The notes under the pieces were generated by a model that was not told where the DNA came from, made no database searches, and saw only the letters and a program-made list of their open reading frames with translations. Source: Protonemura montana (Eukaryota > Arthropoda > Insecta > Plecoptera > Nemouridae). From it: a stretch of 64,000 nt of DNA. Made by a program: the position numbers and the translations under genes. Of this stretch, positions 12,802-38,419 are shown piece after piece. The stretch lies in contig OX387603.1 in assembly GCA_947568835.1 (NCBI GenBank), positions 2,501 to 66,500 of the forward strand, written 5' to 3'. How positions within the stretch are numbered: the first letter of the stretch is position 1; each line of letters starts with the position of its first letter.

Positions 12802-13080
12802 GACATGCCTAGAGGTTGAAGGGATAAGAATAAAACTACACTGCGCAGGGTCAGGTCATAGTCACCCATCCAATACCTGACCCAGTGCAGTGTTGGTAAC
12901 TTCCATCCCCCCCAACCTCTCTCCCGATCTGGTCATGTGTTTGATGGTCACCCATCCATTGATGGCCCAGCGCAGTGTTGCTTAACTTTCATCCCTCCAA
13001 CCTCTTTCCCGAACAGATCAAGTCATGGGTACGATGGTCACCCATCCAATACCTGAACTAGCGCAGTGTTGCTTAACTCA
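12802..13080. repeat. Inverted cluster of 5S-like units in module F, copy 1
   Basis: A plus-strand unit head (GACATGCCTAGAGGTTGAAG) runs to GGGTCAGGTCAT and then switches strand: the following units read on the minus strand (GGATGGGTGACT, AAGTTAAGCAACACTGCG). The switch near 12859 forms an imperfect palindrome, GGGTCAGGT ... ACCTGACCC. The same junction occurs at 27600-27876 and 38116-38398. Confidence 0.75.
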
Positions 13081-13099: not shown

Positions 13100-13171
13100 G
13101 ATCTGAACCCACGCCCTCCGAGGAGGACTGCGACCTGAACGCAGCGCCTTAGACCGCTCGGCCATCCTGAC
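13100..13171 (-). pseudogene. tRNA-Leu (CAG) fragment, copy 1
   Basis: The first 72 nt are canonical: acceptor GTCAGGA, box A TGGCCGAGCGGTC, anticodon stem-loop CTGCG-TTCAGGT-CGCAG with anticodon CAG, a long type-II variable arm and box B GGGTTCAGATC. The 3' T-stem strand and acceptor strand are replaced by unrelated sequence that leads within about 20 nt into 5S-like units. It keeps both internal promoter boxes but cannot fold into a mature tRNA. Confidence 0.8.
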
Positions 13172-13373
13172 TTAATGGTGATGTGATATATAATTTTGTA
13201 CAATCACTGTCCAGATATGTAGAAATAGAAATGAGTGTCTAATTTAGAACCAGCAGCATAGCGAATGTGCTTTCAAAAAAGGGCAAATAAAAAATATATA
13301 TGATTTTATAGGAAATAAAAAGTAGCCTCGTTGATGTATGCAATATTGCAAGAGAAAATAAAATTCAAAAAGT

Positions 13374-13444
13374 TGCATTGGCTGGGAATCGAACCCGGGC
13401 CGCCCGCGTCGCAGGCGAGCATTCTACCACTGAACCACCGCTGC
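13374..13444 (-). tRNA. tRNA-Gly-like gene, anticodon GCG, copy 1
   Basis: A 71-nt gene with the body of tRNA-Gly(GCC): GGTGGTTCAGTGGTAGAAT (A box, D arm), anticodon stem CTCGC/GCGGG and GGGTTCGATTCCC (B box). The anticodon loop is CTGCGAC, so the anticodon reads GCG (Arg) instead of GCC. The acceptor stem has two mismatches (5' GCAGCGG, 3' CCAATGC). A run of five T follows three bases downstream, as a pol III terminator should. Either a tRNA pseudogene or an anticodon-switched tRNA. Confidence 0.75.
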
Positions 13445-13925
13445 AGATATAAGTTTTGCAGGCAGTAACTCATCTTACCAGTTGGGATTATTTCCTCTGA
13501 CTGATAGGGACATTGACCAATCTAATCTAAATAATAATTAAAGTACTATTTTTGCAGTGTTTTTTGATTTTCTGGCATTTCCACTAGGGAGCTTAAACCA
13601 GCAAGCGTATGATGGACAGGAAGCTAGACTGGAAAGTTTATTGATTGAAGTTCATTGATTATTGTTGATCCACAAATAACAGAGTTTGATTTGGTTTGAT
13701 CGCGGCTCAGTTTTTACAGATTCACTTTATGATAATATTCTAGCTTAACATGTTTCCAGGGTTCAAACCAGCGCCTACTTACAACACGCATCGCGTTGTT
13801 TGCTTTGTTATTGCTTGAATAAATCTGAAACCCTTTCAAATCACTGCATGCCTTGACTTGCAAAGCTCTTTACTAGCGTCAAGTACTTGCTTCTACCATA
13901 AAGAAAGACTTAGGTTAGGTTTCAA

Positions 13926-14190
13926 GGTATCTGGTTAAAAGGTATCTGGTATAAAGTTACCTGGTATAAAGGTATCTGGTATAAATGTATCTGGTATAAA
14001 TGTATCTGGTATAAAGGTATCTGGTATAAAGGTATCTGGTATAAAGGTATCTGGTATAAAGGTATCTGGTATAAAGGTATCTGGTATAAAGGTATCTGGT
14101 ATAAATGTATCTGGTATAAAGGTATCTGGTATAAAGGTATCTGGTATTAAGGTATATGGTATAAAGGTATCTGGTATATCGGCACTGGGG
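13926..14190. repeat. 15-bp minisatellite (GGTATCTGGTATAAA)n in module F, copy 1
   Basis: About 17 units with a few G/T substitutions. The sister arrays at 28722-28905 and 49568-49775 hold about 12-13 units, so the locus varies in length between duplicates. The minus-strand ORF is a repeating pentapeptide and is not a gene. Confidence 0.85.
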
Positions 14191-15577
14191 TTTGACAGAA
14201 AGCTTAGAGCATGACGGATGGTGGCGGCGCTAGTTGTAGCAAACCGCTGTACGTGCCGCGGAGTTGGAAGAATCCGTAGTGCATGTGACTTTCGTAAACG
14301 CGCTAGTAGCTTAGAGAAAAGAATACGGGTTAGGTAGTGTTAAAGTTTCTGCCAACTTTTTGGACCTTCTTAGGAACCACACCATGATCACAGCAGTCGT
14401 TTGGGGTGCCAGCAGCTAGCGATTGCGGGATTTTAGTGGCACTGCCTAGGAACTCCATGAATACCTTACCGACTCGGCTCAGGCTGTCAGAAAATGCGAA
14501 ATTTGTGAGCCTGTCGGCGGGATCGCGATTGACAGGTAGCGAAAAGGGTGTGTTATTTTTAGAAGCGGGTAGCAACCAATCTGTTAACCAGTTCCACAAA
14601 ACCACATGCGTGAGACGATACCAAATGTTTACATGGACTCTGTGAATTGAAACAAGGAAATCCATTTCATCCTTGTCGATGGTTACTTTTAATCTTAAGA
14701 GAAATTAACCATCAGGCTCATTTAGGTTCTTTACTTGTATGCTATAAAAGTGGAATTTAATCTTTGACTGCGGTATTTTCTTTCTGCAACTAATTGTTTT
14801 AAAAAAAAATCGAAATCTGAAAAATGTTGGTAGGTTTCTGAATAACGTTTTATTTTTAAGTTTTATGCTTTAAAATATACAATCAACAGAAATAATGGCG
14901 GTAATTAACTTTGTAAGTAAAAATGACGATCGACAGCCCGGTTAAAGGAAAAGAATATACCTAATGACATTCTAGGCCCAGATTTAGCGATTTGACATAA
15001 TTTCTCACCCAACAATTTCAATGTGACACGGTCATGTTCGTGAATGCATGGTATGAGAGACTTACAGCGAATTCAAGCGGCACAAAGTGTTTTTATGAAA
15101 AATATCCGCAGAGAACTATGTCTGTATTGGACTGCTAGATGGTATTACAATTTAGTTCAGTAGTAATCATTTTTTCTCTCCCCCCCCCCCCCCCCCCGCC
15201 ACAAAAACTTTAGCAGCTGACTATATTTGCCGCATTTTTACATGGCAAATCGTGTAGGAGTGATAGATGATGCAGAGTTTAACGTGTCATACTCGTGAAA
15301 ACTTACGCGATTTTTGTGGGTTCGTGAATGGCCAAAACTGACTTTGATCATGTCTACGCGGCAATGTTTTAGTAAGCATATAAAGAACAGGGGTTATTTT
15401 TCAAGAAAAAGGAAGAGACACTATCAGACAGAAAATTGAAGAAAAATTAAGATTTATCAATCCTCAAGGTAAGCATTCCACTTTGTTTTCATTCACAATC
15501 ACCTTCAATATGCACCATTCGCAATAAACACACGGCCAATGCTAAAAGGGTACTACATTACTACATTTTCGACATTC

Positions 15578-18085
15578 CTAGAGGTCGAAGGGATAAGAAT
15601 AAAACCAAGCTGCGCTGGGTCACCGTATTGCATGGGTGACTATCATACACATGACCAATTCTGTTCGGGAGAGAGGTTAGAGGGATGAAAGTTAAGCAAC
15701 ACTGAGCTGGGTCAGGTATTGGATAGGTGACCATCATACACATGACCAATTACGTTCGGCAGAGGTTGGAGGGCTGCAAGTTAAGCTACACTACGCTGGG
15801 TCAGGTATTGGATGGGTAACCGTCAGACCAGTTCTGTACGGGAGAGGTTGGCAGAATGAAAGTTAATCAACCCTGCGCTAGGTCATGTTTTGAATGGATA
15901 ACCATCATACACATGACCATTTCTTTTAGGGAGAGAGGTTAGTTGGAGGGCTGAAAGTCAAGAAACACTGCGCTGCGTCAGGGATAGGATGGGTGACCAT
16001 CATACACATGTCCAGTCTTATTTGGGAGAGGTTGGAGGAATGAAAGTTAAGCAACACTGCGCTGGGTCAGGTGTTGGATGGGTAACCGCCAGACCAGTTC
16101 TATACGGGAGAGAGGTTGGAGAGATGAAAGTTAAGCAACACTGCGCTGGGTCAGGTATTGGATAGGTGACCATCATACACATGACCAATTCCGTTCGGGA
16201 GAGGTTGGAGGGCTGCAAGTCAAGCAACACTACGCTGGGTCAGGTATTGGATGGGTGACTATCAAACAAATGACCAGTTTTATTTGGGAGAGAGGTTGGA
16301 GGGATGAGAGTAAAGCAACACTGTTCTGGGTCAGGTATTGGATAGAAAACCATTATACACATAACTAGTTCTGTTCGGGAGAGAGGTTGAAGGGTGAAAG
16401 TTAAGCAGCACTGCGCTGGGTCAGGTATTGGATGGGTGACTATCAAACACATGACCAGTTTTGTTTGGGAGAGAGGTTGGAGGGATGCAAGTTAAGCAAC
16501 ACTACGCTGGGTCAAGTATTGGATGGGTAACCGCCAGACCGGTTCTGTACGGGAGAGAGGTTGGAGGGTTGAAAGTAAAGCAACACTGCGCTGAGTCGGG
16601 TATTGGATGGGTGACTATCATACACATGATAGGTTCAATTCGGGAGAGAGGTTGGAGGGATGCAAATTAAGCAACACTGCGCAGAGTCGGGAATTGGATG
16701 GGTGACCATCACACAAATGACCAGTTCTGTTAGGGAGAGAGGTTGGAGGGATGCAAGTAAGGCAACACTACGCTGGGTCAAGTATTGAATGGGTAACCAC
16801 CAGACCGGTTCTGTACGGGAGAGAGTTTGGAGGGTTTAGAGTAAAGCAACACTGCGCTGAGTCAGGTATTGGATGGGTGACCATCACACATACCATCAGC
16901 TCTATTCGGGAGAGACGTTGGAGGGATGCAAGTTGAGCAACACTACGCTGGGTCAGGTGTTGGATGGGTAACCGCCAGACCAGGTTTATACGGGAGGGAG
17001 GTTGGAGGGATGAGAGTTAAGCAACACTGCGCTGGGTCAGGTATTGGATGGATGACTATCATACACATCAGCAATTCTGTCCGGAGGAGAGGTTGGAGGG
17101 ATGAAAGTAAAGCAACACTGTTCTGGGTCAGGTTTTGAATGAATGACCATCATACACATGACCATTTCTTTTAGGGAGAGAGGTTAGTTGGAGGGATGAA
17201 AGTCAAGGAACACTGCGCATGGTCAGGTATTGGATTGGTAAGCGCCAGACCAGTTCTGTACGGGAGAGAGGTTGGAGGGATGAAAGTAAAGCAACACTAC
17301 GCTGGGTCAGGTTTAGGATGGGTGACAATCATACACATGTCCAGTCCTATTTAGGAGAGGTTGGAGGGATGCAAGTTAGGCAACACTACGCTGGGTCAGG
17401 TATTGGATGGGTAACCGCCTGACCAGTTCTGTACGGGAGAGAGGTTGGAGGGATGCATGTTAAGCAACATTCCGCTGAGTCAGGCATTGGATGGGTACCT
17501 GCTAGACCAGTTCTGTACGGGAGAAAGGTTGGAGGGATGAAAGTAAACCAACACTGCGCTGGATTAGATAATGGATGGGTGACCATCATACACATGAATA
17601 GTTATTTTCGGGAGAGAAGTTGGAGGGATGCAAGCTAAGCAACACTGTACCGAGTCGGGTATTGAATAGGTACACATCATTCACATGACCAGTTCATTTT
17701 GGGAGATAGGTTGGAGGGATGAAAGTAAGGCAACACTGCGCAGGGTCAGGTATTGGATAGGTAACCGCCAGACCAGTTCTTTACGGGAGAGAGGTTGGAG
17801 GGATGAAAGTAAAGCAACACTGCGCTGGATCAGGTAATGGATGGGTGACCATCATACACATGACCATTTCTATTCGGGAGAGAGGTTAAAGGGATGCAAG
17901 TTAAGCAACACTCCGCTGAGACTGGTATTGGATGGGTGACCAACATACACATGACCAATTCTGTTCGGGAGAGAGGTTGGAGGGATGCAAGTTGAGCAAC
18001 ACTACGCTGGGTCAGGTATTGGATGGGTAACCGCCAGACCAGTTCTGAACGGGAGAGAGGTTGGAGGGATAAAAGAAAAGCAACA
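15578..18085 (+). repeat. 5S rRNA-like satellite G, array 1
   Basis: Roughly 28 units of 92 bp (CATCATACACATGACC type) and 85 bp (CCGCCAGACC type). The core, AAGTTAAGCAACACTGCGCT then GGGTCAGGTATTGGATGGGT and GACC, aligns without gaps to the 5S rRNA stretch that carries box A (AGTTAAGC), the intermediate element and box C (GGATGGGTGACC). CCAGTTCTGTTCGG matches 5S upstream of box A. The 5' and 3' quarters of 5S are missing. The many 60-70 codon ORFs on both strands are period effects. Confidence 0.8.
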
Positions 18086-18400
18086 CTGGCGTCGTGTGGG
18101 GCATGAAATGAGTGTATAAAGTATTTGCACGTACCTCGTCTTCAAGCAGCTGGCAGCGACACCAACTGTTGATATCTTCCCCTAACACAGGGGGTGTTAG
18201 CTACGCTCCCAGCTGTCTGGTTATCACCAACACCCCCCCTCCGCCTCGCTCCTTCAGCAGCGTCACGTGGCTGCCATTGTTGACTCCCCTGCATCCTGCG
18301 TCCAGCGTCCTGCGTCCAGCGGCCAGCAATTACGGCACTTGAAACTTTCACGGAGCACTTTGTCCGACTCTTTCCCCGAGTCCCTGCAAGAAAAAACAAA
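18086..18400. repeat. Subtelomeric module A, copy 2
   Basis: Begins where the 5S-like array breaks off (AACACTGGCGTCGTGTGGGG) and carries the module A landmarks. The 12-bp minisatellite is reduced to one unit. Nearly identical to 33363-33660. Confidence 0.8.
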
Positions 18401-19380
18401 CAATATTAGCTGATGTTGTAAATTAGGCGCTTGAAAATACCTCTAATTGTCTCAGATGCAGAGAAAAGCTGCCGACTCACTCAGTGTGGTACTGCAAGGG
18501 GGAGGATGCGGGATACAGACTTTAACTAACCCAAAATCTGCTTACAAACAAAACCTATTATCTCCACAAACAAAATAAGTACATAGATTCTGAAGTCCCT
18601 TCCTAGCTTTGTAGCTAGAATAAAAATATAAATGATAATTGAGTACGATAGCGTCTATATAGCGGTGCGTCATGTCGAGCTGGCGTCGTGGCGGCTCACA
18701 ACTCAGGGGCAGTGTCCTTCAATACGCAGTCTGATGATCGGCGACTCACGTCCACTTGGTCTTGCGATGTTTGACTGTTACGTCTCCCTTCTTGCGTCCG
18801 CTCGGTTCACCGGCCTCGAGCAGTTTCTCCTGACACGTCTTGTCGCGTTCCCGACCTCGGGCTGACTCCCTGCTCCTTCGTTGGTCTTCCTCGCGCGTTC
18901 CTCAAGCTCCCCCTCCGGATTACACAACTCGTGACTCAGTCGACCAATCATTGGCTCGCATTTAGTTTGTGACCATATTTGGAGATGTTCGTCCACAGGG
19001 ATCCCCCATGTCGCTATTAGCCACCGTACTCAAATATTCCTCTACTTTACATTTAATATGCATTGCAAATAATTGGGAGAGTCAGTTTGGAACGGATAGT
19101 AGGACCAGAACCGCACTGCGAGCGTCAGCACATTCCGCTGATAAATAGTCATTCACTATCGCCACCTGGAGCTTAACCATGGGGCAATTTGCAAACAGAG
19201 GAAAGAACGCTGGCGCCCCAAGGGAGACTTATCAGAGATATTTCACAGACGCACGTGGCTAGAAGCCTGTGACCCAATATGTGCATTTCACAATGTAAAC
19301 AAATGACACATCCATGCAAATGTTGGTACCAATAAGATCTGATAGCAGCAATTCATGGATCATGTTCATCAAGTGTCAAA
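18401..19380. repeat. Subtelomeric module H, copy 1
   Basis: About 1 kb found again at 33661-34640 with few differences and absent from the A-B junctions at 4.3 and 25.5 kb. It contains a GC-rich part (18660-18960) with short ORFs on both strands that I cannot link to any family. No promoter or RNA gene is recognised. Confidence 0.7.
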
Positions 19381-20313
19381 TGATCCAGCCAGCTGATCTC
19401 AAATAACCTGGATAGAGCATAGGATCCAGCCAGCTGATCTCAGATATCCTAGATAGAACAAAGCATCCACCCAGCTGAACTCAAATAACCTGGATAGAGC
19501 AAAGGATCCAGCCAGCTGATCTCAAATAACCTGGATAGAGCATAAGATCGAGCCAGCTGATCTCAAATAACCTGAATCGAGCATAGGTTCCAGCCAGCCG
19601 ATCTTAAATAACCTGGATAGAGCATAGGATCCAGCCAGCTGACTAAAATAACCTGGATAGAGCTTAGGATACAGCTAGCTTATCTCAAATAACCCGGATA
19701 GAGCATATGATCCAGCCAGCTGATCTCAAATAACCTAATAGATCATAAGATCCAGCCAGCTGATCTCAAATAAACTGGATAGAGCATAGGATCCAGCTAG
19801 CTGATCTCATATAACCCGGATAGAGCATAGAATCCAGCCGGTTGATTTCAAATAATTCGGATAGAGCATAGGATTCAGCCAGCTGATCACAAATAACCTG
19901 GATAGAGCATAAGATCCAGTCAGCTGATCTCAAATAACCTGGATAGACAATAGGATCCAGCCAGCTGATCTCAAATAACCTGGATAGAACATAGGATCCA
20001 GCCAGCTGATCTCAAATAACATGGATAGAGCATAGGATCCAGCCAGCTGATCTCAAATAACCTAGATATAACATAGGATCCAGCCAGCTGATCTCAAATA
20101 ACCTGGATAGAACATAGGATCCAGCCAGCTGATCTCAAATAACACGGATAGAACATAGGATCCAGCCAGCTGATCACAAATAATGTGGAAAGAGCATAGG
20201 ATCCAGTAAGCTGATCTCAAATAACCCGGATATAACATAGGATCTAGCTAGCTGATCTCAAATAACATGGATAGAACATAGGATCCAGCCAGCTGATCTC
20301 AAATAACATGGAT
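19381..20313. repeat. Satellite B, 41-bp units, array 2
   Basis: About 23 fairly uniform units. Unlike the other arrays, which lead into module C, this one is joined directly to a 5S-like unit at its right end (ACATGGATAC then ATGACCG). Confidence 0.88.
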
Positions 20314-23300
20314 ACATGACCGTTTATTTTTGAGAAAGGTAAGTTGGAGGGATGAAAGTCAAGCAACACTTCGTTGGGTCAGGTTTAGGGTGGCTGACCA
20401 CCATACACTTGACCCGTTTTACTTGGGAGAGAGGTTGGAGGGTGAAAGTTAAGTAGCACTGCGCTGGTTCAGGTATTGGATGGGTAAATATCTAATACAT
20501 GACCAGTTTTGTTTGGGAGAGAGGTTGGAGGGATGCAAGTTAAGCAACACTACGCTGGGTCAGGTATTGGATGGGTAACCGCCAGACCAGTTCTGTACGG
20601 GAGAGAGGTTGGAGGGATGAAAGTAAAGCAACACTGCGCTGGGTCAGGTATAGGATGGGTGACCATCATACACATGTCCAGTCCTATTTAGGAGAGGTTG
20701 GAGGGATGCAAGTTAGGCAACACTACGCTGGGTCAGGTATTGGATGGGTAACCGCCAGACCAGTTCTGTACGGGAGAGAGGTTGGAGGGATAAAAGTTAT
20801 GCAACACTGCGCCGAGTCTGGTATTAGATGGGTGAACATCTTACACATGATCAGTTCTGTTCGGGAGAGAAGTTGGAGGGATAAAAGTAAAGCAGCACTG
20901 TTCTCGGTCAGGTTTTGGATAGATAACCATCATACACATGACAATTTCTTTTTGGGAGAGAGGTAAGTTGGAGGGATGAAAGTCATGCAACACTGCGTTA
21001 GCTCAGGAATTGGATGGGGGACCATCAAACACACGACTGTTCTATTTGGGAGAGAGGTTAGTTGGAGGGATGAAAGTCAAGGAACACTGCGCATGGTCAG
21101 GTATAAGATGGGTGACCATCATATACATGTCCAGTCCTATTTGGGAGAGGTTGGAGGAACGAAAGTTAAGCAACACTACGCTGGATCAAGTATTGGATGG
21201 GTAACCGCCAGACCGGTTCTGTACGGGAGAGAGGTTGGAGGGTTGAAAGTAAAGCAACACTGCGCTGAGTCGGGTATTAGATGGGTGACCATCATACACA
21301 TGATAAGTTCAATTCAGGAGAGAGGTTGGAGGGATGCAAATTAAGCAACACTGCGCTGAGACGGGAATTGGATGGGTGACCATCACACAAATGACCAGTT
21401 CTGTTAGGGAGAGAGGTTGGAGGGATGCAAGTTAAGCAACACTACGCTGGGTCAAGTATTGAATGGGTAACCGCCAGACCGGTTCTGTACGGGAGAGAGT
21501 TTGGAGGGTTTAAAGTAAAGCAACACTGCGCTGAGTCAGGTATTGGATGGGTGACCATCACACATACCATCAGCTCTATTCGGGAGAGACGTTGGAAGGA
21601 TGCAAGTTGAGCAACACTACGCTGGGTCATGTGTTGGATGGGTAACCGCCAGACCAGTTCTATACGGGAGAGAGGTTGGAGGGATGAAAGTTAAGCAACA
21701 CTGCGCTGGGTCAGGTATTGGATGGATGACCATCATACACATAAGCAATTCTGTCCGGAGGAGAGGTTGGAGGGATGAAAATAAAGCAACACTGTTCTGG
21801 GTCAGGTTTTAAATGGATGACCATCATACACATGACCATTTCTTTTAGGGAGAGAGGTTAGTTGGAGGGATGAAAGTCAAGGAACACTGCGCATGGTCAG
21901 GTATAAGATGGGTGACCATCAGATACATGTCCAGTCCTATTTGGGAGAGGTTGGAGGAACGAAAGTTAAGCAACACTGCGCTGGGTCAGGTATTGGATGG
22001 GTGACCATAATTCACATTACCAGTTCTGTTCGTGAGAGAGATTGGAGGGATGAAAGTTAAGGAACACAGTGCTGGGTCAGGCATAAGATGAGTGACCATC
22101 GAACACACGGCCAGTTCTGTTCAGGAGAGAGGTTGGAGGGATGAAAGTATTGCAACACTGCGCTGAGTCCGGTATTAGATGGGTGACCATCATACACATG
22201 ATCAGTTCTGTTCGGGAAAAGGGTTGGAGGGATGAAAGTAAATAACACTGTTCTCGGTCAGGTTTTGGATGGATAACCATCATACACATGACCATTTATT
22301 TTTGAGAGAGGTAAGTTGGAGGGATGAAAGTCAAGCAACACTTCGTTGGGTCAGGTTTAGGGTGGCTGACCACCATACACTTGACCCGTTTTATTTGGGA
22401 GAGAGGTTGGAGGGTGAAAGTTAAGCAGCACTGCGCTGGTTCAGGTATTGGATGGGTGAATATCAAATACATGACCAGTTTTGTTTGGGAGAGAGGTTGG
22501 AGGGATGCAAGTTAAGCAACACTACGCTGGGTCAGGTATTGGATGGGTAACCGCCAGACCAGTTCTGTACGGGAGAGAGGTTGGAGGGATGAAAGTAAAG
22601 CAACACTGCGCTGGGTCAGGTTAGGAATGGGTGACCATCATACACATGTCCAGTCCTATTTAGGAGAGGTTGGAGGGATGCAAGTTAGGCAACACTACGC
22701 TTGGTCAGGTATTGGATGGGTAACCGCCAGACCAGTTCTGTACGGGAGAGAGGTTGGAGAGATAAAAGTTATGCAACACTGCGCTGAGTCAGGTATTAGA
22801 TGGGTGAACATCTTACACATGATCAGTTCTGTTTGGGAGAGAGGTTGGAGGGATAAAAGTAAAGCAACACTGTTCTCGGTCAGGTTTTGGATGGATAACC
22901 ATCATACACAAGACAATTTCCTTTTGGGAGAGAGGTAAGTTGGAGGGATGAAAGTCATGCAACACTGCGTTAGCTCAGGAATTGGATGGGGGACCATCAA
23001 ACACACGACTAGTTCTATTTGGGAGAGAGGTTGGAGGGATGAAAGTTAAGCAACACTGTTCTGGGTCTGGTATTGGATGGATAACTATTATACACATAAC
23101 CAGTTCTGTTCGGGAGAGAGGTTGGATGGATGAATGTTAAACACTGTGCTGGGTCAGGTATTGGATTGGTGGCCATCACACATACCATCAGCTCTATTCG
23201 GGAGAGAGGTTGGAGGGATGCAAGTTGAGCAACACTACGCTGGGTCAGGTGTTGGATGGGTAACCGCCAGACCAGTTCTATACGGGAGAGAGGTTGGAGG

Positions 23301-24765
23301 GATGATAGTTAAGCAACACTGCGCTGGGTAAGGTATTGGATAGGTGACCATCATACACATGACCAATTCCGTGCGGGAGAGGTTGGAGGGCCCCAAGTTA
23401 AACAACACTACGCTGGGTCAGGTATTGGATTGGTAACCGTCAGACCAGTTCTGTACGGGAGAGATTGGCAGAATGAAAGTTAATCAATCCTGCGCTGGGT
23501 CAGGTATTGGATGGATGACCATAATACACATAAGCAGTTCTGTCCGGAGGAGAGGTTGGAGGGATGAAAGTAAAGCAACAGTGCGCTGGGCCAGGTATTG
23601 GATGGGTACCTGCTAGACCAGTTCTGTACGGGAGAGAGGTTGGAGGGATGAAAGTAAAGCAACACTGCGCTGGATTAGGTAATGGATGGGTGACTATCAT
23701 ATACATGACCAATTCTGTTCGGGAGAGAGGTTGGAGGGGTGCAAGTAAAGCATGATTGAGCTGGGCAGATATTTAGGATGGGTGACCATCATACACATGA
23801 CCAGTTCTGTTCGGGGGAGAGGTTGGAGTGATGAAAGTTAAGCAAGACTGCGTCGGGTCAGGTATAAGATGGGTGACCAGCATACACATGACCAGTTCTG
23901 TTCGGGAGAGAGGTTGGAGGGATGATAGTTAAGCAACACTGCGCTGGGTCAAGTATTGGATGGGGGACTACATACACATGACCAGTTCTGTTCGGGAGAG
24001 AGGTTGGATGGAAGAAAGTTGAGGAACACTGCACAGGGTCAGGTATTGGATTACACATACCATCAGCTCTATTTGGGAGACAGGTTGGAGCGATGCAAGT
24101 TAAGCAACACTACGCTGGATCAGGTATTGGATGGGTAACCGCCGGACCAGTTCTGTACGGGAGAGAGGTTGGAGGGAACAAAAGTTATGCAACACTGCGC
24201 TGAGTCAGGTATTAGATGGGTGAACATCTTACACATGATCAGTTCTGTTTGGGAGAGAGGTTGGAGGGATAAAAGTAAAGCAACACTGTTCTCGGTCAGG
24301 TTTTGGATGGATAACCATCATACACAAGACAATTTCCTTTTGGGAGAGAGGTAAGTTGGAGGGATGAAAGTCATGCAACACTGCGTTAGCTCAGGAATTG
24401 GATGGGGGACCATCAAACACACGACTAGTTCTATTTGGGAGAGAGGTTGGATGGAAGAAAGTTGAGGAACACTGCACAGGGTCAGGTATTGGATCACACA
24501 TACCATCAGCTCTATTTGGGAGACAGGTTGGAGGGATGCAAGTTTAGCAACACTACGCTGGATCAGGTATTGGATGGGTAACCGCCGGACCAGTTCTGTA
24601 CGGGAGAGAGGTTGGAGGGATAAAAGTTTAGCAACACTGCGCTGAGTCAGGTATTGGATTGATGGCTATAATACAAACATTGCCAGTTCTGTACGGGAGA
24701 GAGGTTGGATGGATGAATGTTAAGCAACACTGAGCTGGGTCAGGTATTGGATGGGTGACTACGGA
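20314..24765 (+). repeat. 5S rRNA-like satellite G, array 2
   Basis: The largest array, about 50 units. Blocks of several units recur inside it (for example 20509-20960 with 22497-22930 and 24170-24355), showing amplification in multi-unit steps. Both the 85-bp and 92-bp unit types occur, plus a longer variant with GAGGTTAGTTGGAGGGATG. Confidence 0.8.
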
Positions 24766-24910
24766 ATGGTTTGGTGAAGTGTATACACCGGTCCTCGTGA
24801 AATCATCGAGGTTAAAGAGGCGTGAAGCTAAAAAATGTATGTTTTTTTTGTTTAACATTGGTTGCATTTAACATTGGCTCAGTTCTTTCAGATTCACTAC
24901 GATCATACGT
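24766..24910. other. Short unmatched spacer between array 2 and module A copy 3
   Basis: About 145 bp not found at the other G-A junctions, which share AACACTGGCGTCGTGTGGGG. It contains an oligo-T run and GGTCCTCGTGAAATCATCGAGG. I see no gene. It may be a small insertion or an older state of the junction. Confidence 0.45.
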
Positions 24911-25480
24911 GTGGGGCATGAAATGAGTGTATAAAGTATTTGCACGTACCTCGTCTTCAAGCAGCTGGCAGCGACACCAACTGTTGATATCTTCCCCTAA
25001 CACAGGGGGTATTCGCTACGCTCCCAGCTGTCTGGTTATCACCAACACCCCCCCTCCCCCTCGCTCCTTCAGCAGCGTCACGTGGCTGCCATTGTTGACT
25101 CCCCTGCATCCTGCGTCCAGCGTCCTGCGTCCTGCGTCCAGCGGCCAGCAATCACGGCACTTGAAACTTTCACGGAGCACTTTGTCCTGCACTTAGTCCT
25201 GCACTTTGTCCTGCACTTTGTCCTTCATTTTGTCCATCACTTGCCGGTAACTTTCCGACCACTTTACACTTGTCACACTATCGCAGCACTTTCAGCGACT
25301 GCTTTTTAGACACTGCCCTGCAAGGAAAGTTTAAGACAGCGTTAGCTTATGTTGTAAGTTAGGCGCTTGAAAATACCTCTTATCGTCTCAGATGCAGGAA
25401 AAAGCTGCTGACTCACTCAGTGTGATCTTACGAGGGGGAGGATGCGGGATACAGACTTTAACTAACCAAAACTAACTCAA
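24911..25480. repeat. Subtelomeric module A, copy 3
   Basis: Module A with a short 12-bp minisatellite (about 25170-25240) and the tail that resembles copy 1 rather than the H-containing copies 2 and 4. Confidence 0.75.
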
Positions 25481-25830
25481 ATAACCTGGATAGAACATGA
25501 GATCCAGCCAGCTTATCGCAAATAAAATAGACAGAGCATAGGATACAGGCAGCTGATCTCAAATTACCTGAATGGAGCATAAGATCAAATCAGCTTATCT
25601 CTAATAATATGCATGGCATAGGATACAGTCAGCTGATCTCAAAAAACCTGGATGGAGCATAGGGTCCAGCCAGCTGGGCACTAATATCCTGGAAAGAGCA
25701 TTGGATCTAGTCAGCTGATCTAAAATAATCTAGATAGAGCATAGGGTCGAGCCAGCTGATCTCAATAACCTAAATAGAGCATAGGATCCAGCGAGCTGAT
25801 CTCAAATGACCTGGACAGAGCATGAGTTTC
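25481..25830. repeat. Satellite B, 41-bp units, array 3
   Basis: The shortest and most degenerate B array, about eight units, leading into module C as array 1 does. Confidence 0.75.
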
Positions 25831-27360
25831 AGCCAGTAAAACAGATGGGATTGTTCAGATGATTTTAAATATACGATTGTAAAATTGACAAAGAAAACTC
25901 ACCACGTGGTTCAGTAGTAGATCCAGCTCGATGACAGGATGTTGTCTCCCAGATCTCCCAGATCGATGACAGGATGTTGTCTCCAAGATCTCCCAGCTTT
26001 CATTGACTGCTGTCTCTCAACCTTGAAGTCCACCCTGCAATGAAACAACGTTATTATTTACACAGTCAGGTGCCTCAGAGTGGACCACGGCCAGGACAAG
26101 GGAGGCATCCAACTGGCCGTGGCAACATAAATTGTCTTGCAATGCCCTCAGTATTTTATCTTTAGGAACACTAATAATCTCTCATAATTTGGTGCCCGAA
26201 TGGGGAATCGAACCCTGATCTCCACACGTGGTTATAATCTTCTAAAGAGTTACACATATTTGAGAGAGTAGCTGTGTTCATGATACTGCAATACTAGCCC
26301 AATGCAAGCGACGAGGGAGAGAGAATTTGTTGAATAAATAACTTGATATTTGAGTTGATTGTACACTGCAGTTGTCAAGTGAACCACGAGGTATTTGACC
26401 CTGCTAGGGTAGACTAACCTGGTAATAAAATTAAATGTCAACGCCCGCAAGTTGCAGATAGTGAACTTAATTCTAGCCGTTAGAGCGAACATGATGATAC
26501 CAGCCGGAATATTGTTTTACACAAACGATTGATTTTATTAGTTGAGGCATTGCTATCCACTGACCATTCATTCACTAACAATTGGATCTAAGCTTCCATA
26601 TCCATTTGAATAAACAAGGAGTAGCAGAATGAAATCACGGAACATTCCTCATAGATAATAAGAACTATAAACTAGAACAAGATCTTTGCTGTAAATCAAA
26701 CTAATCAAGAGATGACAAGCTTCATACAAGATCACACACGTGTTGGTCTATGCATGATGCTATCATGAACTAGACACACTATCTTTGTTAGTATCAACAG
26801 GTGAGTTAATTCTGATTTATTAAAATGTCTGGCAAATGATTCTCCTTCGAATGAGAGCAGACGTGTGATAGTATTGCTACTTAATACACGAGACTTGTCT
26901 GGTGGTCCGAGGCATGTCGGTACATACTTTACATGGCAAGCACTGAACACGAGCAACGATACAAGTACTGAATTACTACACATGTCCTCGTGGTCATACT
27001 AATTTATTCGCGAATAAAATGTATCCCCTGTGCTCGGCTGGTAATAATATCGAGTTAAATAGCGCCATGCAATGAAACCACGCTTTATATTAAACTCAGT
27101 GCACGAGTAGAAGTAAAGCTTTAAAGAAGATGTTGGTTTGTGAAATTAGTCTTACCGTTGGTTACAGCTATGTGAGCGACCCTTCCCTTCCCGCGCGTAG
27201 CAAACTAGTCCCAGTGTTCTCGATCGTTCTAAAACGTTGTTACACTACGTGCTACACTAGCGCAGCGGCGAGTGTTTCTCGTACTGTCATAGTTGTAAAG
27301 AGCGCCAAGAGAGTGCGCTCGCGGCCCTGAAAACAAGCCATAGAAGCTTCTCAAAATAAG
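25831..27360. repeat. C-D-E unit, single copy at 25.8 kb
   Basis: One copy only. It has a longer C segment than the first three copies, with an extra part (ACATAAATTGTCTTGCAATG) before the tRNA-like 3' half. The E part is the rearranged type. No gene is supported. Confidence 0.75.
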
Positions 27361-27897
27361 GCGGCAATAATAAGGCATGAACAAATCATAAAATTTAACC
27401 CATTCCACAGTTTCTGCATAAATATATAATTATTATAACCACGACAAACACGATTATACAATCGTTCAAACACATTGGAGTCTCTTCTGAAAGTTCCTCA
27501 TTACATCCAAAAACACTCGACGTTGTTATGAATGGGAATAATCAAGCGACGTCTTCAATTCTCGTAAGCTTACCTACCTGAGTGAGGTGGATGCAATTCG
27601 ACATGCCTAGAGGTTGAAGGGATAAGAATAAAACCACACTGCGCAGGGTCAGGTCATAGTCACCCATCCAATACCTGACCCAGTGCAGTGTTGGTAACTT
27701 CCATCCCCCCCAACCTCTCTCCCGATCTGGTCATGTGTTTGATGGTCACCCATCCATTGATGGCCCAGCGCAGTGTTGCTTAACTTTCATCCCTCCAACC
27801 TCTTTCCCGAACAGAACAAGTCATGGGTACGATGGTCACCCATCCAATACCTGAACTAGCGCAGTGTTGCTTAACTCACTGATCATCAGATCAACAC

Positions 27898-27969
27898 GAT
27901 CTGAACCCACGCCCTCCGAGGAGGACTGCGACCTGAACGCAGCGCCTTAGACCGCTCGGCCATCCTGAC
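27898..27969 (-). pseudogene. tRNA-Leu (CAG) fragment, copy 2
   Basis: Same as copy 1: complete D arm, CAG anticodon arm, variable arm and box B; 3' acceptor strand replaced, followed by minus-strand 5S-like units. Confidence 0.8.
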
Positions 27970-28171
27970 TTAATGGTGATGTGATATATAATTTTGTACA
28001 ATCACTGTCCAGATATGTAGAAATAGAAATGAGTGTCTAATTTAGAACCAGCAGCATAGCGAATGTGCTTTCAAAAAAGGGCAAATAAAAAATATATATG
28101 ATTTTATAGGAAATAAAAAGTAGCCTCGTTGATGTATGCAATATTGCAAGAGAAAATAAAATTCAAAAAGT

Positions 28172-28242
28172 TGCATTGGCTGGGAATCGAACCCGGGCCG
28201 CCCGCGTGGCAGGCGAGCATTCTACCACTGAACCACCGCTGC
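28172..28242 (-). tRNA. tRNA-Gly (GCC)-like gene, copy 2
   Basis: 71 nt, loop CTGCCAC with anticodon GCC. The acceptor stem still shows two mismatches (GCAGCGG against CCAATGC). A and B boxes and a downstream T5 terminator are intact, so it could be transcribed. The acceptor mismatches make efficient function doubtful. Confidence 0.78.
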
Positions 28243-28721
28243 AGATATAAGGTTTTCAGGCAGTAACTCATCTTACCAGTTGGGATTATTTCCTCTGACT
28301 GATAGGGACACTGACCAATCTAATCTAAATAATAATTAAAGTACTATTTTTGCAGTGTTTTTTTATTTTCTGGCATTTCCACTAAGGAGCTTAAACCAGC
28401 AAGCGTATGATGGACAGGAAGCTAGACTGGAAAGTTTATTGATTGAAGTTCATTGATTATTGTTGATCCACAAATAACAGAGTTTGATTTGGTTTGATCG
28501 CGGCTCAAGTTTTTACAGATTCACTTTATGATAATATTCTAGCATAACATGTTTCCAGGGTTCAAACCAGCGCCTACTCACAACACGCATCGCGTTGTTT
28601 GCTTTGTTATTGCTTGAATAAATCTGAAACCCTTTCAAATCACTGCATGCCTTGACTTGCAAAGCTCTTTACTAGCGTCAAGTACTTGCTTCTACCATAA
28701 AGAAAGACTTAGGTTAGGTTT

Positions 28722-28905
28722 CAAGGTATCTGGTTAAAAGGTATCTGGTATAAAGGTACCTGGTATAAAGGTATCTGGTATAAATGTATCTGGTATAAAT
28801 GTATCTGGTATAAATGTATCTGGTATAAAGGTATCTGGTATAAAGGTATCTGCTATAAAGGTATCTGGTATAAATGTATCTGGTATAAAGGTATCTGGTA
28901 TATCG
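28722..28905. repeat. 15-bp minisatellite in module F, copy 2
   Basis: About 12 units of GGTATCTGGTATAAA with G/T variants; shorter than in copy 1. Confidence 0.85.
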
Positions 28906-30290
28906 GCACTGGGGTTTGACAGAAAGCTTAGAGCATGACGGATGGTGGCGGCGCTAGTTGTAGCAAACCGCTGTACGTGCCGCGGAGTTGGAAAAATCCG
29001 TAGTGCATGTGACTTTCGTAAACGCGCTAGTAGCTTAGAGAAAAGAATACGGGTTAGGTAGAGCTTTACAGTCTGTGTTAAAGTTCCTGCCAACTTTTTG
29101 GACCTTCTTAGGAACCACACCATGATCGCAGCAGTCGTTTGGGGTGCCAGCAGCTAGCGATTGCGGGATTTTAGTGGCACTGCCTAGGAACTCCATGAAT
29201 ACCTTACCGACTCGGCTCAGGCTGTCAGAAAATGCGGAATTTGTGAGCCTGTCGGCGGGATCGCGATTGACAGGTAGCGAAAAGGGTGTGTTATTTTTAG
29301 AAGCGGGTAGCAACCAATCTGTTCACCAGTTCCACAAAACCACATGCGTGAGACGATACCAAATGTTTACATGGACTCTGTGAATTGAAACAAGGAAATC
29401 CATTTCATCCTTGTCGATGGTTACTTTTAATCTTAAGAGAAATTAACCATCAGGCTCATTTAGGTTCTTTACTTGTATGCTATAAAAGTGGAATTTAATC
29501 TTTGACTGCGGTATTTTCTTTCTGCAACTAATTGTTTAAAAAAAAATCGAAATCTGAAAAATGTTGGTAGGATTCTGGATAACGTTTTATTTTTAAGTTT
29601 TATGCTTTAAAATATACAATCAACAGAAATAATGGCGGTAATTAACTTTGTAAGTGAAAATGACGATCGACAGCCCGGTTAGTGGAAAAGAATATACCTA
29701 ATGACATTCTAGGCCCAGATTTAGCGATTTGACATAATTTCTCACCCAACAATTTCAATGTGACACGGTCATGTTCGTGAATGCATGGTATGAGAGACTT
29801 ACAGCGAATTCAAGCGGCACAAAGTGTTTTTATAAAAAATATCCGCAGAGAACTATGTCTGTATTGGACTGCTAGATGGTATTACAATTTAATTCAGTAG
29901 TAATCATTTTTTCTCCCCCCCCCACCCCCCAAACTTTAGCAGCTGACTATATTTGGCGCATTTTCACATGGAAAATCGTGTAGGAGTGATAGATGATGCA
30001 GAGTTTAACGTGTCATACTCGTGAAAACTTACGCGATTTTTGTGGGTTCGTGAATGGCCGAAACTGACTTTGATCATGTCTACGCGGCAATGTTAAAGTA
30101 AGCATATAAAGAACAGGGGTTATTTTTCAAGAAAAAGGAAGAGACACTATCAGACAGAAAATTGAAGAAAAATGAAGATTCATCAAGCCTCAAGGTAAGC
30201 ATTCCACTTTGTTTTCATTCACAATCACCTTCAATATGCACCATTCGCAATACACACCCGGCCAATGCTAAAAGGGTACTACATTACTAC

Positions 30291-33200
30291 ATTTTCGACA
30301 TTCCTAGAGGTCGAAGGGATAAGAATAAAACCACGCTGCGCTGGGTCACCGTATTGCATGGGTGACTATCATACACATGACCAATTCTGTTCGGGAGAGA
30401 GGTTGGAGGGATGAAAGTTAAGCAACACTGAGCTGGGTCAGGTATTGGATAGGTGACCATCATACACATGACCAATTACGTTCGGCAGAGGTTGGAGGGC
30501 TGCAAGTTAAGCAACACTACGCTGGGTCAGGTATTGGATGGGTAACCGTCAGACCAGTTCTGTACGGGAGAGGTTGGCAGAATGAAAGTTAATCAACCCT
30601 GCGCTAGGTCATGTTTTGAATGGATAACCATCATACACATGACCATTTCTTTTAGGGAGAGAGGTTAGTTGGAGGGATGAAAGTCAAGAAACACTGCGCT
30701 GGGTCAGGTATAGGATGGGTGACCATCATACACATGTCCAGTCTTATTTGGGAGAGGTTGGAGGAATGAAAGTTAAGCAACACTGCGCTGGGCCAGGTAT
30801 TGGATGGGTACCTGCTAGACCAGTTCTGTGTTGGAGGGATGAAAGTCAATAACACTGTTCTCGGTCAGGTTTTGAATGGATGACCATCATACACATGACC
30901 ATTTCTTTTAGGGAGAGAGGTTAGTTGGAGGGATGAAAGTCAAGGAACACTGCGCATGGTCAGGTATAAGATGGGTGACCATTATATACATGTCCAGTCC
31001 TATTTGGGAGAGGTTGGAGGAACGAAAGTTAAGCAACACTGCGCTGGGTCAGGTATTGGATGGGTGACCTTAATTCACATTACCAGTTCTGTTCATGAGA
31101 GAGATTGGAGGGATGAAAGTTAAGGAACACAGTGCTGGGTCAAGCATAGGATGGGTGACTATCAAACAAACGACCAGTTTTATTTGGGAGAGAGGTTGGA
31201 GGGATGAAAGTTAAGCAACACTGCGCTGGGTCAGGTATTGGATAGGTGACCATCATACACATGACCAATTCCGTTCGGGAGAGGTTGGAGGGCTGCAAGT
31301 CAAGCAACACTACGCTGGGTCAGGTATTGGATGGGTGACTATCAAACATATGACCAGTTTTGTTTGGGAGAGAGGTTTGAGGGATGCAAGTTAAGCAACA
31401 CTACGCTGGGTCAAGTATTGGATGGGTAACCGCCAGACCGGTTCTGTACGGGAGAGAGGTTGGAGGGTTGAAAGTAAAGCAACACTGCGCTGAGTCGGGT
31501 ATTGGATGGGTGACCATCACACATACCATCAGCTCTATTTGGGAGAGACGTTGGAGGGATGCAAGTTGAGCAACACTACGCTGGGTCAGGTGTTGGATGG
31601 GTAACCGCCAGACCAGTTCTATACGGGAGAGAGGTTGGAGGGATGAAAGTTAAGCAACACTGCGCTGGGTCAGGTATTGGATGGATGACCATCATACACA
31701 TAAGCAATTCTGTCCGGAGGAGAGGTTGGAGGGATGAAAGTAAAGCAACACTGCGCTGGGCCAGGTATTGGATTGGTACCTGCTAGACCAGTTCTGTACG
31801 GGAGAGAGGTTGGAGGGATGAAAATAAAGCAACACTGTTCTGGGTCAGGTTTTGAATGGATGACCATCATACACATGACCATTTCTGTTAGGGAGAGAGG
31901 TTAGTTGGAGGGATGAAAGTCAAGGAACACTGCGCATGGTCAGGTATTAGATGGGTGACCATCAAATACATGTCCAGTCCTATTTGGGAGAGGTTGGAGG
32001 AACGAAATTTAAGCAACACTGCGCTGGGTCAGGTATTGGATGGGTGACCATAATTCACATTACCAGTTCTGTTCGTGAGAGAGATTGGAGGGATAAAAGT
32101 TAAGGAACACAGTGCTGGGTCAGGCATAGGATGGTTGACCATCGAACACACGGCCAGTTCTGTTCAGGAGAGAGGTTGGAGAGATGAAAGTATTGCAACA
32201 CTGCGCTGAGTCCGGTATTAGATGGGTGACCATCATACAAATGATCAGTTCTTTTTGGGAAAAGGGTTGGAGGGATGAAAGTAAATAACACTGTTCTCGG
32301 TCAGGTTTTGGATGGATAACCATCATACACATGACCATTTATTTTTGAGAGAGGTAAGTTGGAGGGATGAAAGTCAAGCAACACTTTGTTGGGTCAGGTT
32401 TAGGGTGGCTGACCACCATACACTTGACCCGTTTTACTTGGGAGAGAGGTTGGAGGGTGAAAGTTAAGCAGCACTGCGCTGGTTCAGGTATTGGATGGGT
32501 GAATATCAAATACATGACCAGTTTTGTTTGGGAGAGAGGTTGGAGGGATGCAAGTTAAGCAACACTACGCTGGGTCAGGTATTGGATAAGTAACCGCCAG
32601 ACCAGTTCTGTACGGGAGAGAGGTTGGAGGGATGAAAGTAAAGCAACACTGCGCTGGGTCAGGTATAGGATAGGTGACCATCATACACATGTCCAGTCCT
32701 ATTTAGGAGAGGTTGGAGGGATGCAAGTTAGGCAACACTACGCTGGGTCAGGTATTGGATGGGTGACCATCATACACATGACCAGTTCTGTACGGGAGAG
32801 AGGTTGGAGGGATGCAAGTTAAGCAACACTCCGCTGAGTCAGGCATTGGATGGGTACCTGCTAGACCAGTTCTGTACGGGAGAAAGGTTGGAGGGATGAA
32901 AGTAAAGCAACACTGCGCTGGATTAGATAATGGATGGGTGACCATCATACACATGAATAGTTATTTTCGGGAGAGAGGTTGGAGGGATGCAAGTTAAGCA
33001 ACACTGCACAGAGTCGGGTATTGAATAGGTACACATCATTCACATGACCAGTTCATTTTGGGAGATAGGTTGGAGGGATGAAAGTAAGGCAACACTGCGC
33101 TGGATCAGGTAATGGATGGGTGACCACCATACACTTGACCCGTTTTACTTGGGAGAGAGGTTGGAGGGTGAAAGTTAAGCAGCACTGCGCTGGATCAGGT

Positions 33201-33362
33201 AATGGATGGGTGACCATCATACACATGACCATTTCTATTCGGGAGAGAGGTTGGAGGGATGCAAGTTTAGCAACACTACGCTGGGTCAGGTATTGGATGG
33301 GTAACCGCCAGACCAGTTCTGAACGGGAGAGAGGTTGGAGGGATAAAAGAAAAGCAACACTG
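30291..33362 (+). repeat. 5S rRNA-like satellite G, array 3
   Basis: About 34 units of the same two types. It starts with the variant head GACATTCCTAGAGGTCGAAG found at the start of arrays 1 and 4, and it ends at the same G-A junction as array 1. Confidence 0.8.
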
Positions 33363-33660
33363 GCGTCGTGTGGGGCATGAAATGAGTGTATAAAGTATTT
33401 GCACGTACCTCGTCTTCAAGCAGCTGGCAGCGACACCAACTGTTGATATCTTCCCCTAACACAGGGGGTGTTAGCTATGCTCCCAGCTGTCTGGTTATCA
33501 CCAACACCCCCCCTCCGCCTCGCTCCTTCAGCAGCGTCACGTGGCTGCCATTGTTGACTCCCCTGCATCCTGCGTCCAGCGTCCTGCGTCCAGCGGCCAG
33601 CAATTACGGCACTTGAAACTTTCACGGAGCACTTTGTCCGACTCTTTCCCCGAGTCCCTG
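33363..33660. repeat. Subtelomeric module A, copy 4
   Basis: Nearly identical to copy 2; the two lie about 15.3 kb apart and mark the larger duplicated block. Confidence 0.8.
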
Positions 33661-34640
33661 CAAGAAAAAACAAACAATATTAGCTGATGTTGTAAATTAG
33701 GCGCTTGAAAATACCTCTAATTGTCTCAGATGCAGAGAAAAGCTGCCGACTCACTCAGTGTGGTCCTACGAGGGGGAGGATGCGGGATAAAGACTTAAAC
33801 TAACCCAAAATCTGCTCACAAACAAAACCTATTAACTCCACAAACAAAATAAGTACCTAGATTCTGAAGTCCCTTCCTAGCTTTGTAGCTAGAATAAAAA
33901 TATAAATGATAATTGAGTACGATAGCGTCTATATAGCGGTGCGTCATGTAGAGCTGGCGTCGTGGCGGCTCACAACTCAGGGGCAGTGTCCTTCAATACG
34001 CAGCCTGATGATCGGCGACTCACGTCCACTTTGTCTTGCGATGTTTGACTGTTACGTCTCCCTTCTTGCGTCCGCTCGGTTCACCGGCCTCGAGCAGTTT
34101 CTCCTGACACGTCTTGTCGCGTTCCCGACCTCGGGCTGACTCCCTGCTCCTTCGTTGGTCTTCCTCGCGCGTTCCTCAAGCTCCCCCTCCGGATTACACA
34201 ACTCGTGACTCAGTCGACCAATCATTGGCTCGCATTTAGTTTGTGACCATATTTGGAGATGTTCGTCCACAGGGATACCCCAGGTCGCTACTAGCCACCG
34301 TACTCAAATATTCCTCTACTTTACATTTAATATGCATTGCAAATATTTGGGAGAGTCTGTTTGGAACGGATAGTAGGACCAGAACCGCACTGCGAGCGTC
34401 AGCACATTCCGCTGATAAATAGTCATTCACTATCAACCATGGGGCAATTTGCAAACAGAGGAAAGAACGCTGGCGCCCCAACGGAGACTTATCAGAGATA
34501 TTTCACAGACGCACGTGGCTAGAAGCCTGTGACCCAATATGTGCATTTCACAATGTAAACAAATGACACATCCATGCAAATGTTGGTACCAATAAAATCT
34601 GAAAGCAGCAATTCATGGATCATGTTCATCAAGTGTCAAA
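33661..34640. repeat. Subtelomeric module H, copy 2
   Basis: Near-identical to 18401-19380, with one short deletion near 34433 (the CGCCACCTGGAGCTTA part of copy 1 is missing). No gene recognised. Confidence 0.72.
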
Positions 34641-36250
34641 TGATCCAGCCAGCTCATCTCAAATAACCTGGATAGAGCATAGGATCCAGCCAGCTGATCT
34701 CAAATATCCTAGATAGAACATAGCATCCACCCAGCTGAACTCAAATAACCTGGATAGAGCATAGGATACAACCAGCTGATCTCAAATAACATGGATAGAG
34801 CAAAGGATCCAGCCAGCTGATCTCAAATAACCTGGATAGAGCATAAGATCGAGCCAGCTGATCTCAAATAACCTGGATAGAGCATAAGATCGAGCCATCT
34901 GATCTCAAATAACCTAGATAAAGCTTAGGATCCAGCCATCTGATCTCAAATAACCTGAATCGAGCATAGGTTCCAGCCAGCTGATCTTAAATAACCTGGA
35001 TAGAGCATAGGATCCAGCCAGCTGACTAAAATAACCTGGATAGAGCTGAGGATACAGCCAGCTTATCTCAAATAACCCGGATAGAGCATATGATAGAGCC
35101 AGCTGATCTCAAATAACCTAATAGATCATAAGATCCAGCCAGCTGATCTCAAATAAACTGGATAGAGCATAGGATCCAGCTAGCTGATCTCATATAACCC
35201 GGAAAAAGCATGGAATCCAGCCGGTTGATTTCAAATAATTCGGATAGAGCATAGGATTCAGCCAGCTGATCACAAATAACCTGAATAGAACATAGGATCC
35301 AGCCAGCTGATCTCAAATAACCTGGATAGACAATAGGATCCAGCCAGCTGATCTCAAATAACCTGGATAGAACATAGGATCCAGCTAGCTGATCTCAAAT
35401 AACATGGATAGAGCATAAGATCCAGTCAGCTGATCTCAAATAACCTGGATAGACAATAGGATCCAGCCAGCTGATCTCAAATAACGTGGATAGGGCATAA
35501 GATCCAGTCAGCTGATCTCAAATAACCTGGATAGACAATAGGATCCAGCCAGCTGATCTCAAATAACCTAGATAGAACATAGGATCCAGCCAGCTGATCT
35601 CAAATAACATGGATAGAACATAGGATCCAGCCAGCTGATCTCAAATAACCTGGATAGAGCATAGGATCCAGCCAGCTGATCTCAAATAACCTGGATATAA
35701 CATAGGATCCAGCCAGCTGATCTCAAATAACCTGGATAGAACATAGGATCCAGCCAGCTGATCTCAAATAACATGGATAGAACATAGGATCCAGCCAGCT
35801 GATCTCTAATAATGTGGATAGAGCATAGGATCCAGTCAGCTGATCTCAAATAACCCGGATATAACATAGGATCTAGCTAGCTGATCTCAAATAACATGGA
35901 TAGAACATAGGATCCAGCCAGCTGATCTCAAATAACCTGGATAGAGCATAGGATCCAGCCAGCTGATCTCAAATAACATGGATAGAACATAGGACCCAGC
36001 CAGCTGATCTCAAATAACCTGGATAGAACATAGGATCCAGTCAGCTGATCTCAAATAACATGGATAGAGCATAGGATCCAGTCAGCTGATCTCAAATAAC
36101 CCGGATATAGCATAGGATCCAGCCAGCTGATCTCAAATAATGTGGATAGAGCATAGGATCCAGTCAGCTGATCTCAAATAACCTGGATATAGCATAGGAT
36201 CCAGCCAGCTGATCTTAAATAACCTGGATAGAACATAGGATCCAGCCAGT
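34641..36250. repeat. Satellite B, 41-bp units, array 4
   Basis: The longest B array, about 39 units, mostly uniform. Alternation of CCTGG, CATGG and CCCGG variants suggests amplification in blocks of two to three units. It leads into module C. Confidence 0.88.
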
Positions 36251-37870: not shown

Positions 37871-38419
37871 AATAAGGCGGCAATAATAAGGCATGAAAAA
37901 ATCATAGAATTTAACCCATTCCACAGTTTCTGCATAAATATATAATTATTATAACCACGACAAACACGATTATACAATCGTTTAAACACATTGGGGTCTC
38001 TTCTGAAAGTTCCTCATTACATCCAAAAACACTCGACGTTGTTATGAATGGGAATAATCAAGCGACGTCTTCAATTCTCGTAAGCTTACCTACCTGAGTG
38101 AGGTGGATGCAATTCGACATGCCTAGAGGTTGAAGGGATAAGAATAAAACCACACTGCGCAGGGTCAGGTCATGGTCACCCATCCAATACCTGACCCAGT
38201 GCAGTGTTGCTAACTTCCATCCCCCCCAACCTCTCTCCCGATCCGAACTGGTCATGTGTTTGATGGTCACCCATCCAATACCTGGCCCAGCGCAGTGTTG
38301 CTTAACTTTCATCCCTCCAACCTCTTTCCCGAACAGAACAAGTCATGTGTACGATGGTCACCCATCCAATACCTGAACTAGCGCAGTGTTGCTTAACTCA
38401 CTGATCATCAGATCAACAC

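Follow-up and report, generated by a model that had tools for sequence, protein, structure and literature searches.

The window analysed here, by which we mean the whole stretch of 64,000 nucleotides (contig C2, positions 2501-66500) from the 258.5-Mb genome of the stonefly Protonemura montana, assembled in 34 contigs, contains four tandem arrays of a short unit that resembles part of 5S ribosomal RNA (rRNA), and we consider it very probable that these arrays are a satellite grown from a short interspersed element (SINE) with a 5S-rRNA head, along the route proposed below. The genome has 129 matches to PF02949, an insect-type family of odorant receptors, which was matched in 0 of 14 control genomes. 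The arrays were located by Tandem Repeats Finder, which reported 91-bp repeats at 15610-18088, 20343-24759 and 30336-33362 and a smaller array of period 89 at 55203-55645, and were then widened slightly by unit searches. So delimited, arrays A1 (15580-18088), A2 (20314-24759), A3 (30306-33362) and A4 (55176-55645) all lie on the + strand, and cyclic alignment, in which units with at least 70 aligned positions were kept, divides them into 116 units (28, 49, 34 and 5, respectively), 84 of a long type of 91 bp and 32 of a short GGTAACCGCC type of 85 bp. Long and short units are intermixed along A1 (18 long, 10 short), A2 (35 and 14) and A3 (26 and 8), while A4 consists of long units only. A first reading of this DNA (hereafter the original prediction) had described more than 110 units in four arrays, which is borne out, with 111 units inside the span 15578-33362 and the fourth array beyond it; the main unit length of 92 bp that it gave is corrected to 91 bp. 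Stretches 15615-20314 and 30860-35574 of the window share 86% identity.

Likeness of the unit to 5S rRNA

The species' own 5S genes give 47 scored matches in the genome (108.7-117.5 bits). Aligned with this 5S sequence, the 91-bp unit scores 51 over 5S nt 49-92 and the 85-bp unit scores 50, against maxima of 30 and 27 among 2000 dinucleotide shuffles of each sequence, and none of the 2000 reached the real score of the unit. The alignment to the species' own 5S that the original prediction had set as its test therefore came out in its favor. Its further proposal that the GGTAACCGCC unit is the closer of the two to 5S does not hold, given the score of 50 versus 51 and a G-to-A change in the box C of the short type. 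With the limits of box A, the intermediate element (IE) and box C on head and unit placed as is usual for 5S, box A (AGTTAAGC) lies 31 bases from box C (GGATGGGTGACC) in 83 of the 85 pairs found in the span at up to two substitutions per box, which is the spacing in the species' own 5S; one mononucleotide shuffle of the span yielded no such pair. The predicted 5S spacing of the control-region boxes is thus confirmed, but the boxes are mostly inexact rather than intact: exact box A occurs 35 times in the arrays and exact box C 20 times, and both occur at 5S spacing in 5/116 units. The idea that the arrays are 5S rRNA genes was rejected, as the full 5S covariance model is unmatched, and no other Rfam family was found over the arrays.

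The dispersed 5S-headed SINE

The 25-nt core of the unit has at least 34,427 matches in the genome, which by simple multiplication with 91 bp gives a lower-bound abundance of about 3.1 Mb, or 1.2% of the genome. Patterns from the head and tail of the element described below match at least 5,945 and at least 11,426 times; these three counts and those of the junctions below are lower bounds, and the reversed-pattern control gave 0 for each. The 100 core matches listed include positions between 0.06 and 28.8 Mb along C1, and the repeat therefore extends far beyond the subtelomeres. The original prediction had called the repeat subtelomeric, which is true of the 85-bp variant (see below) and not of the repeat as such. 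The exact unit and exact tail had no matches in viral contigs. From about 29.9 Mb of C1 to 31.3 Mb, where the listing stops, exact tail matches follow each other closely for more than 1 Mb, every one of those listed on the + strand, as if a SINE-bearing segment had been tandemly duplicated.

Dispersed loci show a recurring order of 5S head, a variable number of units and a tail of about 290 bp. We sampled a further 40, of which 20 on C1 were anchored by the tail and 20 on C2 by the head, always with an exact match. A single-unit copy of about 430 bp (L085) comprises a 5S head (nt 17-92), a linker, the tail, AAT-type repeats and target-site duplications. By eye, the 3′ repeats among the copies listed are of AAT type, in some copies AAAT or AATC, and L057 has none. 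Target-site duplications scored at least 9 in 19 of 33 analysable copies, compared with 1.2% of 1056 mismatched flank pairs, after L053, L058, L063, L064, L067, L070 and L079 had been excluded beforehand (head incomplete or 3′ end unclear); among multi-unit copies the same score was reached by 8/13. The length of the duplications varies, from 8 upward. Against the species' own 5S, the 5′ 164 nt of the element score 98 over nt 17-92 (78 columns), with a maximum of 28 among 2000 shuffles, none of which reached the real score; box C of the head is identical to that of the 5S genes, and the IE region is partly different. With its 5S-like 5′ head, variable-length target-site duplications and 3′ simple-repeat tail, which are the marks of SINE3, the dispersed element is a 5S-headed SINE.

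Judged by its sequence, the window unit is the promoter part of this genome-wide SINE. The derivation from the 5S promoter in the original prediction was right as to 5S ancestry and wrong as to a direct copy, and its hint to look for similarity to 5S-derived SINEs (SINE3) led to the best answer. Conversely, a satellite could have arisen directly from 5S rDNA, as PcP190 of frogs, with the SINE later capturing the unit as its promoter. The unit does hold 5S nt 49-92 at 5S spacing, and both C11 and C15 have 5S gene arrays close to the contig start. The SINE head, however, is 5S-like over a longer stretch than the unit (nt 17-92, score 98, versus nt 49-92, score 51), the linker of the unit equals the segment between SINE head and tail, and capture in the reverse direction would need genuine 5S sequence to be added again, and we regard this origin as scarcely credible. 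The window itself adds a remnant of the SINE 5S head at 24761-24815 on the + strand (SINE positions 1-55, 76% identity, E 1.35e-06), which adjoins the end of A2 in a box-C-to-head order, the same as in the 92-bp head repeats found elsewhere in the genome. The remainder of 5S, which had been described as missing, is accordingly not wholly so.

The original prediction also suggested that the arrays could bind TFIIIA/TFIIIC and act as boundaries or give short RNA polymerase III (pol III) transcripts. The 5S spacing of boxes A and C in nearly all near-intact pairs would suit arrays that are maintained as such sites, whether as chromatin boundaries or as sources of short pol III RNA. Factor-binding arrays would be expected to have boxes A, IE and C less variable than the rest, and this is not so: in the 91-bp units the conservation of the control region is 0.887 versus 0.882 at the other tested positions (0.445 of random position sets were as high), and in the 85-bp units 0.929 versus 0.927 (0.489 of random sets). 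At least one exact box pair at 5S spacing is found in 19/40 of the sampled SINE loci, which were chosen for good matches, versus the 5/116 array units given above. The changed box C of the short type likewise speaks against such a role, as do TTTT runs, able to stop pol III, which are present in all four arrays; the SINE consensus has no TTTT. As far as conservation and exact boxes go, a role as boundary, promoter or source of short transcripts thus has no support, and we consider it very improbable that the arrays are maintained for one. Most likely, they would be the by-product satellite of a SINE that was once, or still is, active.

Repetition of the promoter and origin of the arrays

The promoter is repeated in 16 of the 40 sampled loci, with 2 to at least 11 units. 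Among the matches listed, head-to-tail distances of 130, 221, 858 and 949 bases equal, by subtraction, 130 plus multiples of 91, and genome-wide the unit-unit junction matches at least 26,587 times versus at least 9,375 for the unit-tail junction. In the inspected copies the 91-bp junction is a single one with differing flanks, at which the linker GAAAGTTA, the sequence that stands before the tail, joins box A at GAAGTTA, with AAGTTA as a 6-bp microhomology. In a second register, of 92 bp, box C is joined to the SINE 5′ end (within about 3 bases); it has at least 2,421 matches and was seen in L033, L051, L057 and L079.

Whether multi-unit copies moved as such bears on a rival account, in which all arrays grew in place from single-unit insertions by unequal crossing-over or slippage at AAGTTA and multi-unit copies were never mobile. 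The microhomology common to both sides of the junction favors it, as do L060 and L072, in which like units stand in a row or unit variants alternate, and the absence of a clear difference between first and later units at the diagnostic base (p = 0.09). It has more difficulty with an identical junction at so many places, and with a second register that begins at the SINE 5′ end, which fits a template jump of the reverse transcriptase. At a diagnostic base, after exclusion of L057, L063 and L079, and with no state obtained for L066 among the 37 loci examined, A is found in 20/22 single-unit copies (G in 2/22), and G in 20/29 of the units that follow the first in 14 multi-unit copies (Fisher 1.7e-5, although the units are not independent); most later units thus have G, which is infrequent in single-unit copies. 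Nor are multi-unit copies older: in 37 of the 40 loci, unit number and tail divergence are negatively correlated (rho = -0.38, p = 0.02), so that these copies are younger if anything. Growth in place as the sole process is, in our judgment, rather unlikely.

Two further ideas were set aside. Initiation of transcripts from internal promoters would give 5′ starts inside the arrays, and in 18 of 20 tail-anchored loci the head is still present, in part at least. The + and - arrays 3-4 kb apart in L039-L041 suggested a foldback element or DNA transposon whose terminal inverted repeats contain the satellite. This was rejected because these three loci, with their long common flanks, appear to be segmental duplications of a single locus that has two SINEs in inverted order, and because L046 has the opposite order and others have one array only.

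The 85-bp variant has a distribution of its own. It has 199 matches in the genome at up to two mismatches, 88 of them exact. Of the exact matches, 86 are on nine contigs of 13-33 Mb, at most 127 kb from a contig end, and the other two on contig C28; the 91-bp unit is dispersed. The exact matches are on the + strand at left ends and on the - strand at right ends, and this uniform orientation points to the exchange of a larger module among chromosome ends.

We return to the satellite grown from a 5S-headed SINE, for which the following route can be proposed. A founder with at least two promoter units would have arisen by microhomology or a template jump in target-primed reverse transcription, and multi-unit copies would then have retrotransposed themselves, their unit number being altered later by unequal exchange. 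One array may have reached a subtelomere, acquired the 85-bp variant and expanded into mixed long and short arrays, after which the array and its surroundings would have been copied between chromosome ends. The SINE was probably transcribed by pol III via TFIIIA/TFIIIC, with most of the window units as presumably decayed by-products.

A number of results weigh against this account or some part of it. The window arrays are tied to the SINE, on sequence grounds, through the unit and one head remnant; the SINE tail was absent from a search of the window (best matches of 18 and 13 bases, E 0.61), and the Rfam 5S model had no matches in 15500-18200 even at E 10 and none above cut-off in the window. 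No partner among long interspersed elements (LINEs) was identified, though only the stretch downstream of the reverse transcriptase open reading frame of the window (51244-54237) was read by eye, with no genome-wide search. The 40 sampled loci come from two contigs and were picked by an exact match to head or tail, which favors well-preserved copies; a common target-site duplication in L071 and L075 may mean that they are one duplicated insertion, and flank repeats extend the duplications of L061 and L085. At the diagnostic base, first units (A 8, G 5, T 1) are not clearly different from later units (A 9, G 20) of multi-unit copies (p = 0.09), nor single-unit copies from first units (p = 0.075). 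Unit identity is 0.869 within elements versus 0.866 between them, with one two-register locus weighing heavily. Finally, the units of L072 alternate and L060 has three alike in a row, and growth in place therefore also happens. The unit-identity test does not distinguish mobile arrays from local growth, and both may have contributed. A more far-reaching version, in which the pol III promoter of a SINE lineage is a mobile, length-variable array of TFIIIA-type promoters, copied by retrotransposition in jump registers of 91 and 92 bp, and in which this array gives rise to satellites that pass from one chromosome end to another, we put forward tentatively, as possible and somewhat doubtful. If it is true, extra promoter units perhaps raise transcription or offer the reverse transcriptase more landing points.

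Neighboring repeats, related systems and significance

Around the arrays, unit searches detected three inverted modules on the - strand, at 12858-13078 (a short array of 2.4 units), 27656-27876 and 38172-38398, with a mean column identity of 98%. The first has on its 5′ side, directly upstream of the 5S-type units, a tRNA-like stretch (13100-13171, - strand) without a normal 3′ end, which reads as Leu with anticodon CAG and scores 18.8 bits in Rfam, below the cut-off of 29; further copies are found near 27.9 and 38.4 kb, also on the - strand. The same modules carry tRNA copies at 13372-13445, 28170-28243 and 38692-38765 (- strand), two of them read as Gly(GCC) and one, with a single anticodon change, called Arg(GCG) by ARAGORN. 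A 41-bp minisatellite of up to 39 copies lies near or between the 5S-type arrays (4319-4830, 19382-20314, 25476-25823 and 34642-36249), a 15-bp minisatellite (AAGGTATCTGGTATA) is present at 13924-14178, 28723-28902 and 49566-49775, twice slightly beyond the inverted modules, and a 152-bp tandem repeat of 4.2 copies with 99% match is at 44123-44764. Positions 1-1765 of the window consist of telomere-like (CCAAA)n/(TTTGG)n, as do the right ends of C1 and C11 and the left end of C13, and (TTTGG)n is reported to form the telomeres of a weevil, Sitophilus oryzae (PMC12134996); nothing on TTTGG was found in PMC12036569. The left end of C16 has (ACCTA)n, a TTAGG-type repeat, and next to it a sequence similar by eye to window 1890-1960, and two telomere motifs, of TTTGG and TTAGG types, thus occur in one genome or assembly.

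In the SINE-derived satellites (sSats) of squamates, SINE parts are tandemly repeated, a longer terminal unit mostly reaches the SINE end, the forms grade from duplications inside the element into satellites, and subtelomeres are preferred (Vassetzky et al., 2023; PMC10702118); whether sSats occur outside squamates was left open by the authors (PMC10702118). In P. montana the tandem unit is likewise part of a SINE and the terminal unit extends to the SINE end at dispersed loci, while in the window a head remnant is found at A2 only, with no tail; as to position, the 85-bp variant is near contig ends in 86 of 88 exact matches, and the 91-bp unit is dispersed. The sSats come from Squam SINE families; here the host is an insect, the head is 5S-derived, it is the pol III promoter that is repeated, and many arrays stand between target-site duplications. 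Insect 5S SINEs include HaSE3 in Helicoverpa (PMC3272025), PxSE4 and PxSE5 in Plutella, with 4415 and 1952 copies (PMC8010984), and SINE3-1_TC in Tribolium (named in PMC3272025). They share with the present element a head that resembles 5S and includes boxes A, IE and C, a body and a tail, and for some HaSE3-type copies target-site duplications; here, however, the promoter is repeated to satellite size, and the word "tandem" occurs 0 times in the main text of either paper (PMC3272025; PMC8010984).

Amplification of the pol III promoter region of a SINE is also known from Hydromantes Hy/Pol III and Xenopus Satellite 1, which come from a tRNA-related SINE region (PMC9659126) and are thus of tRNA type, the present one being of 5S type. 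The frog satellite PcP190 has a unit of about 190 bp in which a 120-bp region resembles transcribed 5S rDNA (PMC11675491); the units described here, 91 or 85 bp long and each containing roughly 45 nt of 5S, lack the defining features of PcP190, for which the opening of the abstract mentions no SINE parent. A 5S-derived promoter in a mobile element is shared with Ajax and Cassandra, terminal-repeat retrotransposons in miniature (TRIMs) that carry it inside long terminal repeats (LTRs), with 5-bp duplications in Ajax (PMC10886601). Unlike those, the element of P. montana has dissimilar ends (5S head versus simple-repeat tail) and longer, variable duplications, and does not show what defines a TRIM, though no separate LTR search was run. 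Within open-access papers, we found no earlier description of a 5S SINE whose tandem promoter array yields a satellite.

One genome thus holds side by side the SINE with a single promoter, the SINE in which a few promoters are in tandem, dispersed arrays of greater length, and a satellite of the subtelomeres that has a unit variant of its own. SINE-derived satellites are thereby extended beyond squamates and to a 5S-type promoter, and the route from mobile element to satellite becomes testable in insects.

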